A stretch of DNA of 64,000 nt. It comes from Sediminispirochaeta smaragdinae DSM 11293. Lineage in GTDB: Bacteria; Spirochaetota; Spirochaetia; DSM-16054; Sediminispirochaetaceae. Of this stretch, positions 5,101 through 58,529 are shown piece after piece. The stretch lies in NCBI RefSeq assembly GCF_000143985.1, contig NC_014364.1, positions 1,302,001 through 1,366,000 of the forward strand. The letters run 5' to 3'. The position numbers were made by a program, and so were the translations under genes. The notes below the pieces were generated by a model. The model was not told the DNA's origin and did no database searches. It saw only the letters and a list, made by a program, of their open reading frames with translations. Each line of letters opens with the position of its first letter. The stretch's first letter is position 1.

Positions 5101-5261
5101 CGGAAGGGGTCGCAAAACTCTCCTTTTCTTTACCTTACGGACTGGCGGAGTTCGTCGACCTGCTCGAACGTCCACAGAGCGAATTAGCGATTGTCCGAAA
5201 CCAGGTGTCGATACCCTATAAGCCCTATCAATTGATTTCACTTCGTCTTTCTTTTTTGTAG
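2181..5261 (+). CDS. Alpha-mannosidase, glycoside hydrolase family 38
   Basis: A 1026-residue GH38 alpha-mannosidase of normal family length. The zinc and catalytic residues are visible: GNSHLD (His256, Asp258), the nucleophile Asp368 in WLPDVFGYS, and His564 in MQFHDALPG. A beta-sandwich domain typical of the family follows. No signal peptide is seen, so it should act on mannose-containing oligosaccharides after uptake. It starts inside the stop of the DUF5054 gene (ATGA), forming a two-enzyme mannoside unit. Transcription leaves the gene straight into a short inverted-repeat element that begins one base after the stop codon. Confidence 0.9.
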   Translation: MKKTNHTIFPQLIGERISAYAKRAAEKMWVLLEEPQFSIQIGAAESETPETLRYRPLRQGEIYAEWGWGGLWGYLTLPKALDEDPRYLFLRIQGECTIYHRGVAYAGIDTAHPYARIPEDASELYVWCGTYQTGLWMREGETQFPFPIGRSLVYGGASLVKKDPLYWEFYHRLSFLDDQVTTLLAEYGIRNKTNEYHTTLHRIPPGLRRLLQTAAKALDIYDRCGASEALKALRSTAASFQGDFFSGRIAAVGNSHLDLVWLWPRSITHKKNIHTASTLVRLLETYPKMRFTFSQPYLIEQLKDESPALYCQMRHFIENGRLELTGGMYVESDTLLPCGEALARSFVLGQQFFLKETGTYSTILWLPDVFGYSQSIPQIAVAAGCRYFFTTKLSWSALHRFPYTSFIWSSPDGSQLIAHLSQVGYESRANCGELLQCSYTNQQAGIWDTSLLTYGFGDGGGGVTEEQCERIALAESAPGIPVTYPSRADDFFRELSIYADDLPVYKGELYLEYHRGCYTTARTMKSAYRSVEKGLQTLEAAACAAGTRYDTAAFWKRLVFMQFHDALPGSSISEVYKELIPELLSTAEELAHEAETLLEGEGQFLSCFNPHAVDTIHPISLSQEELGKIQKRDGGVPWQLLSDGSSISLLHLEALEGKRIILDSKPLDSALLGRALQTDPYSVALDQVRVEFSRESGMLAALEIEGIPLLVREGFFSLHADRPSDFEAWEIDYHSSWGERVDASGSLTVTESGPLMVQITSSISIGAESSMDVRYTLYKDLPYLFISLDIDWRERYSLLTYTIPTGYKGRWARFGTPFGSIDRSAQSGSTEHEAHWEDPASRWAAITDGMGRGLAVISESTYGWRISDGDLRLSLIRSVHSSDDKNPGVSTDFPDIGRHTIRFAIGTYQGRCSDGRPNSAQAADLLYTPALTYTGDGIASFLHWIDTGSLAVGWIKECEEANGIIIRCHECAGAEGVAKLSFSLPYGLAEFVDLLERPQSELAIVRNQVSIPYKPYQLISLRLSFL

Positions 5262-5404
5262 TGTTCCGAATCCTGGTGATACACATGCCATTTTGCAGGT
5301 AAAATACTTGCTTTTATGCTGTTGCTTACTTTTTTTAGGGTATGGCTTTTCAGTTGGTTGTGTGAAAAGGAATTACGTTTCCCCAACCACCAGGATTCGG
5401 AACA
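5262..5404. mobile_element. MITE-like element, 143 bp, with 17-bp terminal inverted repeats
   Basis: TGTTCCGAATCCTGGTG at 5262-5278 is repeated as a perfect inverse at 5388-5404. The element is flanked on both sides by GTAG (5258-5261 and 5405-5408), a candidate 4-bp target duplication. There is no transposase or credible ORF inside. It looks like a non-autonomous deletion derivative of an insertion sequence. The left GTAG provides the TAG stop of the GH38 gene. A closely related palindrome lies at 8018-8060 and a diverged single end at 17636-17668. Confidence 0.7.
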
Positions 5405-5430
5405 GTAGATAAAGTGGCCGTGCAAGCCAC

Positions 5431-5459
5431 TTGCAAGCGCGATATATGGATGATAAAAT
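5431..5459 (+). promoter_or_regulatory. Sigma-70-type promoter of the flavin reductase
   Basis: TTGCAA at 5431-5436 and TAAAAT at 5454-5459 are separated by 17 bp. The predicted start, near 5466, falls inside the palindromic operator that follows, as expected for a repressed promoter. Confidence 0.5.
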
Positions 5460-5462
5460 ATC

Positions 5463-5498
5463 GATATATAGTGAATGAGCGTTCACTCACTATATATC
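5463..5498. promoter_or_regulatory. Palindromic operator, probable TetR site
   Basis: A 36-bp near-perfect palindrome: arms GATATATAGTGA and TCACTATATATC enclose a core of the TGAATGA-CG-TTCA type, with only two mismatched base pairs. It covers the predicted transcription start and ends about 30 bp before the reductase ATG. TetR-family proteins bind such sites, and a TetR gene lies at 8141-8728. Confidence 0.65.
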
Positions 5499-5529
5499 AA
5501 TCTTTATAATGAGGGAGTGGAGAAACAAA

Positions 5530-7866
5530 ATGAGAAAGATAATCTCTTACATCCTGGCGGCTGTATTACTGCTGGCGTTTGCGGGGTGCGGCGGAGGTTC
5601 TACATCGGCTGCTAAGGAAGGCAGCTATACACCGGGTACCTACACCGCGACTGCAAGTGGGATGGGTACAGTGGCCGTCACAGCTACTGTTGATGCAAAC
5701 GGCATAACGGAGGTGGTTCTCGACCTCTCCGACGAGACCGAGAGTATCGGGCAAGTTGCTGGTGATACACTGAAGCAGCAGATCCTTGATACGCAAAGCG
5801 AGGCAATAGATGGAGTGACCGGTGCCACCGTTACCTCCTCAGCCGTAAAGTCGGCTCTTGGGGATTGCCTTAAGCAGGCAAGGGGAGACACATCCACAGC
5901 TGAGGCTAAAATGGCTCCGGGCAGCTATTCCGCCGAAGCCTATGGTTTCAACATAGGCTGGACAGACAAAGTGGCGGTTACCGTCAGCGACAGTGCGATC
6001 CTTTCCATTGCCTATGGTGACGATTGCGGAGACACACCACCTATGCTGGATACCGTGGAAAAGAGGCTTTTTCCACGTATCATTGAGGCCCAGTCTGTGG
6101 GCGTTGATGCTGTTACCGGTGCTACTGCCACCAGCAGTGCTGTCAAGGCGGCGGTAAAAGCGTGCCTGATCCAGGCGCTGGCTGCCGGCGGCTCAGATGA
6201 AAGCGCCATCGCAAAATTTTCGGCTGTCCCTAAAAAGAACGGTGGCAACGAGACGCTCAACACACAGGTGCTTGTCATCGGAATGGGCGGATCAGGTACA
6301 TATGTCGGCCTGCGTGCTGAAGAAGAAGGCGCGGATGTACTTACCATTGAAAAGCAGGGACGCTACGGCGGCACCACCGCTTTGACCTCTGAAATCATGT
6401 CTATCAATCCTAATCGTATCAAAGCGGCGTACAACAACGGCAAAGACTTCTGTGATGAGGACGCCATGTATAAGGCATGGCTTGCCTATGTAGATGGAGA
6501 CGCCAAGGTGGACATGATCGACCTGTTCTTCGCCAATTCCGGAGACGCCCTCGACTGGCTCGCCTTGGATCACGACATCCTCTTCGACTTTGATCCCAAG
6601 GTCGGTTTCACGCCTGCAGACGTTTACAAAGTGAAGTTCCAGTGGTACCCCAACACAAACCCCGATGCTCCGGGTGTTTTTGGTGCAAATAAGGCTGAGA
6701 TTGCCGCCGACTTTGACAAACTGGTTTCGGACTTCACCGCCCTGGGCGGGAAGTATATGTTGGAAACCGAAGCGTATGAGCTGATCTATGATGGAAATGG
6801 CGCGGTCATAGGTGCGAAAGCCAAAAATCTGGTGGACGGTACCGTGTATACCATCAATGCTGATGCCGTGGTTCTCGCCACCGGTGGTTTTCTGGGCAGC
6901 AGTGAGATGACCCAAAAGTATCTCTCCGACAACTATTATCCCCTTAAGGGGGCATGGAATATGTACGGTAGCTATGGCAACGACGGTAAGATGATCGAAA
7001 ATGCCATAGAAAACGGCGCAGCTACCTATAATATCGGTATGCCTCCTGAAGTGCATATGTCCGGGTCCGCTAAATTTATTCCTGCAAGCTACGGCTATGA
7101 GATACATGAGATCGAAGGTGCGATCGGCAGATTCTCCGGCGTACAGCGCGTCTGGTCTGTTGCCGATTTGCCCATGTACCTGGGTATTTCCGGCAATAGT
7201 CTGGCAGTCGGACGGGATGGTAAGCGTTTTACCGCAGAAACGGGTGTGGCCATGCTCGATCCGTGGATTGCGGGGCCGAACTATTACAGCATATGGAGTA
7301 CCGATCAAATCAACGATATTAGGGATAATGGCTTTAGGTATGATATGGATGGCGTGGCGGCCGCGTTCTTAGGCTACCTGGGCGCTATTCCACAGGGAAC
7401 ACCTCTTCCTGAAGCCTACGATGTTTTGGATACTGCCATAAAGCTTGGATATGTGTATAAGGCCGATACGATTGAAGAACTGGCCCAAAAGATCGGTGTT
7501 GATCCCGCCGCTCTGACCGCCACCGTGGGTACCTACAACGGCTATTGTGCAGCGGGTGAAGATAAAGATTTCGGCAAAGACCCCGGCTATTTGGAAGCCA
7601 TCGGCGACGGCCCCTATTATGCGGTCAAGATGGCCAGCTATAGTTACTGCACCTGCGCAGCCCTGGATGTGAATAGCGACCTGCAGGTACTTGATACCAA
7701 TGGGAATCCCATCGACGGCCTGTTTGCTGTTGGTGGCGACAGCATGGGAGTACTTTTCAGCGACAGGAAACCCTATGTGACCTTTGGCGGCGCAAATAAC
7801 GGCTGGGCGCTTACTTCGGCGTATATCTGCGGCAAGACCGTTGCAGACCACGTGGGAAGCAAGTAA
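5530..7866 (+). CDS. Lipoprotein flavin-dependent reductase with two FMN-binding domains and a fumarate-reductase-type FAD domain
   Basis: A 778-residue extracytoplasmic reductase. The signal peptide ends in the lipobox LAFAGC (Cys20). Two FMN-binding repeats follow, each with the ApbE-type flavinylation motif (VTGATVTSS with Thr100; VTGATATSS with Thr199). An FAD_binding_2 domain then starts at the GMGGSG dinucleotide motif near residue 251. This layout is that of fumarate/urocanate-reductase relatives, which use an organic acceptor for anaerobic respiration; the acceptor here cannot be read from sequence. The ATG at 5530 was preferred over one at 5509 because GTGGAG stands upstream and it gives a clean signal peptide. 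No haem motif and no ApbE gene is present in the window. The gene is bracketed by related inverted-repeat elements. Confidence 0.85.
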   Translation: MRKIISYILAAVLLLAFAGCGGGSTSAAKEGSYTPGTYTATASGMGTVAVTATVDANGITEVVLDLSDETESIGQVAGDTLKQQILDTQSEAIDGVTGATVTSSAVKSALGDCLKQARGDTSTAEAKMAPGSYSAEAYGFNIGWTDKVAVTVSDSAILSIAYGDDCGDTPPMLDTVEKRLFPRIIEAQSVGVDAVTGATATSSAVKAAVKACLIQALAAGGSDESAIAKFSAVPKKNGGNETLNTQVLVIGMGGSGTYVGLRAEEEGADVLTIEKQGRYGGTTALTSEIMSINPNRIKAAYNNGKDFCDEDAMYKAWLAYVDGDAKVDMIDLFFANSGDALDWLALDHDILFDFDPKVGFTPADVYKVKFQWYPNTNPDAPGVFGANKAEIAADFDKLVSDFTALGGKYMLETEAYELIYDGNGAVIGAKAKNLVDGTVYTINADAVVLATGGFLGSSEMTQKYLSDNYYPLKGAWNMYGSYGNDGKMIENAIENGAATYNIGMPPEVHMSGSAKFIPASYGYEIHEIEGAIGRFSGVQRVWSVADLPMYLGISGNSLAVGRDGKRFTAETGVAMLDPWIAGPNYYSIWSTDQINDIRDNGFRYDMDGVAAAFLGYLGAIPQGTPLPEAYDVLDTAIKLGYVYKADTIEELAQKIGVDPAALTATVGTYNGYCAAGEDKDFGKDPGYLEAIGDGPYYAVKMASYSYCTCAALDVNSDLQVLDTNGNPIDGLFAVGGDSMGVLFSDRKPYVTFGGANNGWALTSAYICGKTVADHVGSK

Positions 7867-7972
7867 TGCCCGGCATAGGACCTAAGCGGTCCTGAAAAGT
7901 AAGCGACTGCTGCAAACTATAAGGAACAAAGTTTCCCGGATAGTGCGTCTGACGCTTTTGTTCTTACCGTAA

Positions 7973-8012
7973 GGGGCTGTCTCATCAATAGGTGAGGTAG
8001 CCCCTCTTTAAA
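7973..8012 (+). terminator. Terminator of the flavin reductase gene
   Basis: GGGGCT at 7973-7978 pairs with AGCCCC at 7999-8004, extended through two wobble pairs by CTCA/TGAG, and is followed by a T-rich stretch. A smaller GGACC/GGTCC hairpin lies at about 7879-7893. Confidence 0.6.
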
Positions 8013-8017
8013 TTTAC

Positions 8018-8060
8018 CTACTGTTCCGAATCCTGCAATCACCAGGATTCGGAACAGTAG
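8018..8060. repeat. Palindromic copy of the 5262 element's termini
   Basis: CTACTGTTCCGAATCCTG (8018-8035) and its perfect inverse (8043-8060) flank a 7-base loop. The arms carry the same TGTTCCGAATCCTG end as the element at 5262-5404, so this looks like the two termini joined with almost no interior. The flanks here are inverted (CTAC and GTAG), not a direct duplication. The rest of 7867-8140 holds only hairpins and the TetR leader. Confidence 0.7.
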
Positions 8061-8140
8061 ATCACTTCCAAGAAACAAACTGGAATAATTATGAGACAGC
8101 AAGTACTATGAAATAAATCCTTAGGTACGGGAGATACATC

Positions 8141-8728
8141 ATGATAATAATGCCCACGGATGATACAAAGACCCGCATTATGAAGAGTACTATCCTTCTT
8201 TTTAACGAGTTTGGCCCTATGGCGCCTATGTCCAAAATCAGCGAAAGGGCGGGAGTTGCCGGGGGAACGCCATACAAGTATTTTAAGACCAAGGAAATGT
8301 TACTTCTTGAGACCTACTATTATGCTCGTAACAGCATAGAAAAAATAAACCGGAACGACCCGCTGGCACAAACATCTGCCGAAGGCATTATCAAGGTCAT
8401 TATTTTAGACATACTCCGCTGGTCCGCTCTTTATTCGGATGAGCACCAGTACGTGGAAAAGTACGAAGATTCGGTATGCTATAATTACTTCTCTGAGGAA
8501 TTCTCAAAACTGTACGTGGGCGTGATCAGGGAACTACATCTTTGGGAGCGTATTAGAAATGATGTGCGAGAAGACATCCCTGAAGTAGTTATCAGCAGGA
8601 TTATCTCTGTTCATTGCAGCGTATTTAGCCGCTACATGAGTAATTTTACTATGGACTTGGATGCTCCTGAAACGAAAGCGTTGATGGAGGCCTCGGCCGA
8701 TTCCATTTGGAACAGCATAAAAAAATAA
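8141..8728 (+). CDS. TetR-family transcriptional regulator
   Basis: A 195-residue protein with a TetR N-terminal helix-turn-helix (roughly residues 10-56, containing MSKISERAGVAGGTPYKYFKTKEMLL) and a helical ligand-binding domain without recognisable specificity. GGAG at 8129-8132 supports the ATG at 8141. It follows the flavin reductase on the same strand behind a terminator. The reductase promoter carries a TetR-style palindrome, so local repression with the reductase substrate as inducer is the simplest model. It ends at a strong bidirectional terminator. Confidence 0.85.
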   Translation: MIIMPTDDTKTRIMKSTILLFNEFGPMAPMSKISERAGVAGGTPYKYFKTKEMLLLETYYYARNSIEKINRNDPLAQTSAEGIIKVIILDILRWSALYSDEHQYVEKYEDSVCYNYFSEEFSKLYVGVIRELHLWERIRNDVREDIPEVVISRIISVHCSVFSRYMSNFTMDLDAPETKALMEASADSIWNSIKK

Positions 8729-8778
8729 ACCGACGAATCGCCGTGCATGCTAACCATTCACTCAAACAGAAGATATAT

Positions 8779-8815
8779 ACCCCTATTGATGAAAACGTTC
8801 TTCATCAATAGGGGT
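8779..8815. terminator. Bidirectional terminator between the TetR and GH4 genes
   Basis: A perfect 15-bp stem (8779-8793 with 8801-8815) and a 7-base loop lie between two convergent genes. T-rich sequence follows on the plus strand. Confidence 0.8.
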
Positions 8816-8831
8816 AATAGGGTTTGTTTGT

Positions 8832-57953: not shown

Positions 57954-58529
57954 TTACAGCCCTTCAAGTCCGTAAAAATGATACTGAGCCAAGAGCGCAA
58001 TCATCTTTTTTGCCCATTCTGCATCTTTGTAATGTCTGGTAATCTCAAAGAAACTTTCCATTAAGTTGGTTGCCAGCATATGATGGAATAGATCATCCTT
58101 CACCTCCATGTCCGTTACTTTTTTGCTCGTGATATAGTTTTTGATATGAGTTTTTGCAAGATTAATAAACTCATCCTTTGCCGCTTCATATTTGGTACCG
58201 GCGCATTTGTCGATCAGAATAACCGCTTGCTTTCTGTCGGTTTCCAGCAGGTCGATTAAAAAGGGAATTTCTGTTTCGAAAAAATAGTGTGTGTCGTTAT
58301 TTCCTGCAGACTCATTACGGAGCAGTGTCGTTATTTTACGATAAACAGGCATGACAACGGCATCCAAAAGATCTTTCTTGCTTTTGTAGTAGCTATATAC
58401 AAGGCCGACCGGAATGGTTGCATGCTCTGCTATCGTTTTCATTTTAGACTTTGCGAATCCATCCACGTAAAAGGATTCAACGGCAGCATGTAGAATTCTC
58501 ATGCGTATTTCTTCTTTTAGGACCTGCAT
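57954..58529 (-). CDS. TetR-family transcriptional regulator
   Basis: A 191-residue regulator with a TetR helix-turn-helix (FYVDGFAKSKMKTIAEHA, then IPVGLVYSYYKSKKDLLDAV) and a helical effector domain. GAGGAAGC precedes the ATG. Matching operators lie in its own promoter (58560) and before the beta-barrel gene (57918), so it probably represses itself and the RND cluster until a hydrophobic ligand binds. Confidence 0.88.
   Translation of the reverse strand: MQVLKEEIRMRILHAAVESFYVDGFAKSKMKTIAEHATIPVGLVYSYYKSKKDLLDAVVMPVYRKITTLLRNESAGNNDTHYFFETEIPFLIDLLETDRKQAVILIDKCAGTKYEAAKDEFINLAKTHIKNYITSKKVTDMEVKDDLFHHMLATNLMESFFEITRHYKDAEWAKKMIALLAQYHFYGLEGL

Follow-up and report, generated by a model that had tools for sequence, protein, structure and literature searches.

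The window analysed in this study is a 64-kb stretch (positions 1,302,001-1,366,000) of the one-contig, 4,653,970-base genome of Sediminispirochaeta smaragdinae DSM 11293 (G000, contig C1), and positions are those of the window unless another source is named. The locus consists of a reductase gene, a promoter region that carries a long palindrome and, downstream, a gene for a TetR-family regulator, together with two segments that are absent in G001, the sole other genome of the genus that was found:

5259-5407: a copy of a 149-bp MITE-like repeat, lying upstream of the promoter and missing from G001.
5431-5459, plus strand: TTGCAA-17-TAAAAT, a promoter-like pair whose -10 is preceded by TG (consensus scan); TTGTAA-17-TAAAAT in G001.
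5463-5498: 36-bp palindrome with 16 of 18 pairs matched, a probable TetR operator, kept in G001, its core unique in the genome.
5472-5489: palindrome core, TGAATG-N6-CACTCA.
5482-5510, plus strand: second promoter-like sequence, TTCACT-17-TATAAT (consensus scan), its -35 within the palindrome.
5530-7866, plus strand: lipoprotein reductase with two FMN_bind domains and FAD_binding_2 (Pfam, NCBIfam), 96% identical in G001.
7866-8105: 240 bases between the reductase and TetR genes, absent in G001, flanked on both sides by AGCAAGTA.
8141-8728, plus strand: TetR-family regulator (PF00440, 5.3e-7), the probable ligand of the palindrome, 95% identical in G001.

The palindrome reads GATATATAGTGAATGAGC followed without a gap by GTTCACTCACTATATATC, and its only mismatched pairs are 13/24 (A/C) and 17/20 (G/T), which bears out the length of 36 bp and the two mismatched pairs given in an earlier note on this DNA; when four mismatches are allowed, the symmetry reaches 5456-5505. 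Nowhere else in the 64-kb window are 16 or more of 18 pairs matched within 36 bp. Simulated sequence gives no such match in 3.84 Mb when modelled at order 2 on the window, and a single match in 3.84 Mb when modelled at order 1 on the AT-rich stretch around the site. A palindrome of this kind is beyond chance. For the 22-bp core, a further copy was not found anywhere in the genome at up to three mismatches. The looser pattern TGARTG-N6-CAYTCA occurs at two places in the genome, but the other copy (C1:1895920) lies within a 920-aa reading frame, and we therefore propose no wider regulon, while TGARTGA-N3-TCAYTCA has no match in either G000 or G001. A scan also scored the palindrome as terminator-like on the minus strand, a reading that was rejected because the genes on either side run on the plus strand.

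The first promoter-like pair, TTGCAA (5431-5436) and TAAAAT (5454-5459), lies in the range 5431-5498 that had originally been singled out; its -10 ends 3 bp ahead of the palindrome and its expected start is near 5466, so that the palindrome spans the predicted start site, as had been claimed. A protein bound at the palindrome would block initiation from this promoter as well as from the second promoter-like sequence. The likely start codon of the reductase is the ATG at 5530, and a longer frame begins at 5509.

The promoter, the palindrome, the reductase and the TetR gene are all kept in G001. The alignment of the two species runs through the palindrome with four transitions in 36 bp: pair 5/32 has changed on both sides, from T-A to C-G, at pair 17/20 the G.T mismatch has been mended to A-T, and the rim pair 2/35 is lost, so that the palindrome in G001 spans 32 bp and has a single mismatched pair. 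Since four random transitions would leave at least 16 pairs with a probability of 0.07, this test of symmetry is a weak one, and we take the symmetry-keeping changes as supportive of a functional site and not as proof. Slower evolution of the palindrome than of its 3' flank was not seen between the two species. A search for the TetR protein in 60 genomes, including that of the window, gave matches at E ≤0.001 in 17, of which only the one in G001 is full-length beyond the window's own genome, the remainder being weak (best 2.4e-6); no orthologue beyond G001 was found in the genome contigs, the 392 Spirochaetota genomes or the plasmids searched, and the conservation footprint therefore rests on two species.

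The protein encoded at 8141 has a TetR_N helix-turn-helix (PF00440, 29.8 bits against a cut-off of 24, residues 13-57), which agrees with the earlier description of a TetR gene downstream of the reductase; its structure model, built from a single sequence only, has a pLDDT of 45.5, too weak to be compared with known folds or to show the helical C-terminal ligand and dimer domain that marks the family. Members of this family bind palindromic operators, from which a ligand releases them. Among PDB sequences, an engineered RamR variant (1e-5) and Bacillus subtilis FadR (4e-4) come closest, both matching weakly and mainly across the helix-turn-helix, so that the similarity of 1e-5 to the RamR variant does not amount to sequence orthology with RamR. 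The operator of RamR, a repressor of the TetR family, is atgagtgN6cactcat and lies on the romA-ramA promoter (PMC4310594). Like the palindrome described here, this operator is an inverted repeat over a promoter, and its half-sites TGAGTG/CACTCA have the same 6-base spacing, with TGAATG in the window one base off; the outer A and T differ (PMC4310594). The helix-turn-helix of RamR also resembles that of the 8141 protein, whereas the palindrome in the window is longer and its apparent target is a reductase rather than an activator gene. With B. subtilis FadR, the helix-turn-helix compares as GVADGTIYLYFKNKE against GVAGGTPYKYFKTKE, but the likeness is limited to about the N-terminal third (residues 27-83). 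FadR is an acyl-CoA responsive member of the TetR family, and the window locus is without fatty-acid genes. The site of B. subtilis FadR is TGAATGA-N4-TCATTCA, with half-site and spacing as in the window palindrome.

From these findings we consider it likely that the TetR-family protein of the 8141 gene has the palindrome as its operator, because the symmetry is kept in G001, the reductase and TetR genes are neighbours in both genomes and form a close pair in G001, the core agrees with the RamR operator in half-site and spacing, one base apart, and the site is unique in the genome. The operator part of the interpretation in the earlier note is thus well supported by inference, while its list of enoate substrates may be too narrow, as the active-site motifs discussed below are missing. 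The genome has 22 TetR_N matches, a second one of which lies in the window at 58356-58496 on the minus strand (C1:1360356-1360496), and with so many candidates the palindrome could instead be the operator of another TetR protein, the 8141 protein controlling something else. The distribution of the motif speaks in part for the operator reading and in part for this alternative. AGTGARTGANNNNTCAYTCACT occurs in 5 of 392 Spirochaetota genomes (none for the reversed control), and outside the genus it is found in G375, G075 and G352, each time ahead of a reading frame, which favours an operator; in G375 the site directly follows TTGACA, and in G075 the longest frame begins within the site. No relative of the 8141 protein was found near these three sites within the 8-10 kb read, and the motif therefore seems to reflect a specificity shared among TetR-type proteins and not to mark the 8141 protein alone. 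In G299 the regulator has a relative of 40% identity, and no such motif was found within 9 kb of it. However, the 8141 gene is the nearest regulator and stands beside the reductase in both species, and a site without a second genome copy fits a local regulator, so that we regard control by another TetR protein as unlikely. The site in G375, a distant spirochaete relative, is a perfect 22-bp palindrome, AGTGAATGAACGTTCATTCACT (L105, 5107-5128), located after TTGACA and before an unrelated gene.

Another alternative is that the palindrome acts in the transcript, where it would form a hairpin at the start of the leader and affect stability or translation, and not as protein-binding DNA. The leader does fold better than its shuffles, with z of -2.08 in the window and -3.07 in G001, but such folding is expected of any transcribed palindrome, the transcription start is a predicted one, and the leader matches no Rfam family. 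Moreover, the change of G.T to A-T in G001 restores the symmetry of the DNA, whereas an RNA would already pair G with U. We consider a role as RNA hairpin to be very improbable. Repeat copies lie around the palindrome and are frequent genome-wide (92 arms), but an origin of the palindrome from these elements is in practice refuted, as its core is single-copy and has no sequence in common with the repeat ends, and it is present in G001, which is without both inserts.

The repeats themselves are a feature of this genome, with ends of the form TA[C/G]TGTTCCGAATCCTGGTG and copies of the 149-bp unit at 11 of the 15 loci read. The window holds one full copy (5259-5407) and a 41-bp remnant consisting of two facing ends (8019-8059). 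The first bases of the full copy form the stop codon of a GH38 gene (5259-5261), and the end of the corresponding protein differs in G001. The facing ends at 8019-8059 lie within the 240-base segment between the reductase and TetR genes, which also holds a terminator-like hairpin at 7972-8005. In G001 the start codon of the TetR gene is only 35 bp past the stop codon of the reductase, which suggests that the two genes there share one transcript and that the regulator limits itself. With two genomes to compare, the segment may equally be an insertion in the window species or a deletion in G001. Beyond the TetR gene, a perfect 16-bp stem-loop (8778-8816), terminator-like on the minus strand, lies between the convergent TetR and downstream genes, and the matching stem is shorter in G001.

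Returning to the reading of the palindrome as the operator of the 8141 protein, we infer a simple course of events, in which this protein, as a dimer or a pair of dimers, would cover the reductase promoter from about -3 to +33 and block transcription of the reductase. A small molecule would release the protein, and this is probably the reductase's own substrate or a related compound. In G001, where the reductase and the regulator are probably one operon, the regulator would limit its own synthesis, and in the window species the 240 extra bases with their terminator-like hairpin may weaken this autoregulatory loop. It is plausible that the identity of the inducer would reveal the electron acceptor, presumed to be a respiratory one, a proposal that is weaker than the operator reading.

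The reductase encoded from ATG 5530 begins with a signal sequence with the lipobox LAFAGC, as read from the translation, and combines FAD_binding_2 (PF00890) with FMN_bind (Pfam scores of 111.8 and 68.8 bits), so that the description of it as a lipoprotein reductase with two FMN domains holds. It has the combination of FAD_binding_2 and FMN_bind that is a feature of flavinylated fumarate-reductase-like oxidoreductases. TGAT is present in both FMN_bind domains and is of the [S/T]GA[S/T] motif type (PMC8238504); the genome has one ApbE match. The window reductase resembles flavinylated fumarate-reductase-like enzymes such as urocanate reductase (PMC8238504) in its FAD_binding_2, in FMN_bind with TGAT motifs and in an export signal, and differs from them in its two FMN_bind domains and in the replacement of both HHTMGG and NRLGG. 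In the alignment, HHTMGG of fumarate reductase, which urocanate reductase also has there, falls on YCTCAA of the window reductase, and the Arg of the NRLGG segment is replaced by SDRKPYVTFGGANNGWALTS. The His of HHTMGG and the Arg of the NRLGG segment have catalytic roles in the active site of the fumarate-reductase type. In an alignment of 17 sequences read by eye, H[HY]TMGG and the Asn-Arg segment are kept in four of the seven paralogues of the same genome and are absent from the window reductase and from its six relatives of 38-50% identity outside G001. Since these motifs are replaced, the substrate class is probably different from that of the flavinylated fumarate-reductase-like enzymes, carboxylate substrates appear less likely, and a screen of enoates only could miss the substrate. 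The panel of fumarate, urocanate, cinnamates and similar enoates rests on the comparison with fumarate reductase and may be too narrow. The best NCBIfam match is the vinyl phenol reductase VprA (NF053717), with 174.6 bits well below the cut-off of 600. A structure model of the reductase built from five sequences has a pLDDT of 59.1, with low quality across most of 452-633 and 737-756, and is likewise too weak for comparison with known folds.

Homologous reductases were also read at nine other loci (L045 and L049 to L056). The palindrome is absent upstream of the reductase at all eight loci scanned, L050 being partly N and L045, which starts at a contig end, being left out. Ten neighbours of reductases, picked by eye at the homologous loci and beside paralogues of the same genome, were given to Pfam, with those at L049, L051, L052, L056 and L091 outside the set. 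The neighbours are of LysR type at L045, L055 and L092, of MerR type at L050, L053 and L089, AraC-type and GGDEF-like at L090, and a sensor kinase at L093; that at L054 is a sugar-isomerase-like protein and not a regulator. Reductases of the window type thus often adjoin a regulator, the family of which varies, with the qualification that the catalytic domain is more distant at L053 and in the paralogues. The window genome has 15 FMN_bind matches; its further FMN/FAD reductases number at least seven, and several of these stand beside MerR, LysR, AraC-type or kinase genes (G000 C1 878500-906500, 3574000-3584000, 3879500-3889500 and 4625500-4635500).

In our judgement, the system is an ordinary local TetR on/off switch on a poorly known clade of reductases. 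A broader idea, which we hold as doubtful but worth stating, is that the locus is an exchangeable substrate-sensing module. In this view, a clade of lipoprotein reductases with two FMN-binding domains, whose active site does not suit carboxylates, would have been partnered by turns with TetR (as here), LysR or MerR regulators, and the electron acceptor sensed by the 8141 TetR protein would be one not yet described, perhaps of enone type rather than a carboxylate. The substrate of this clade is not assignable from sequence alone, and the comparison warns against relying on a panel of fumarate, urocanate and cinnamate. If the 8141 regulator binds the palindrome, the locus would provide a ready-made reporter, and compounds that release the regulator in a screen would hint at the chemistry of what the clade reduces.
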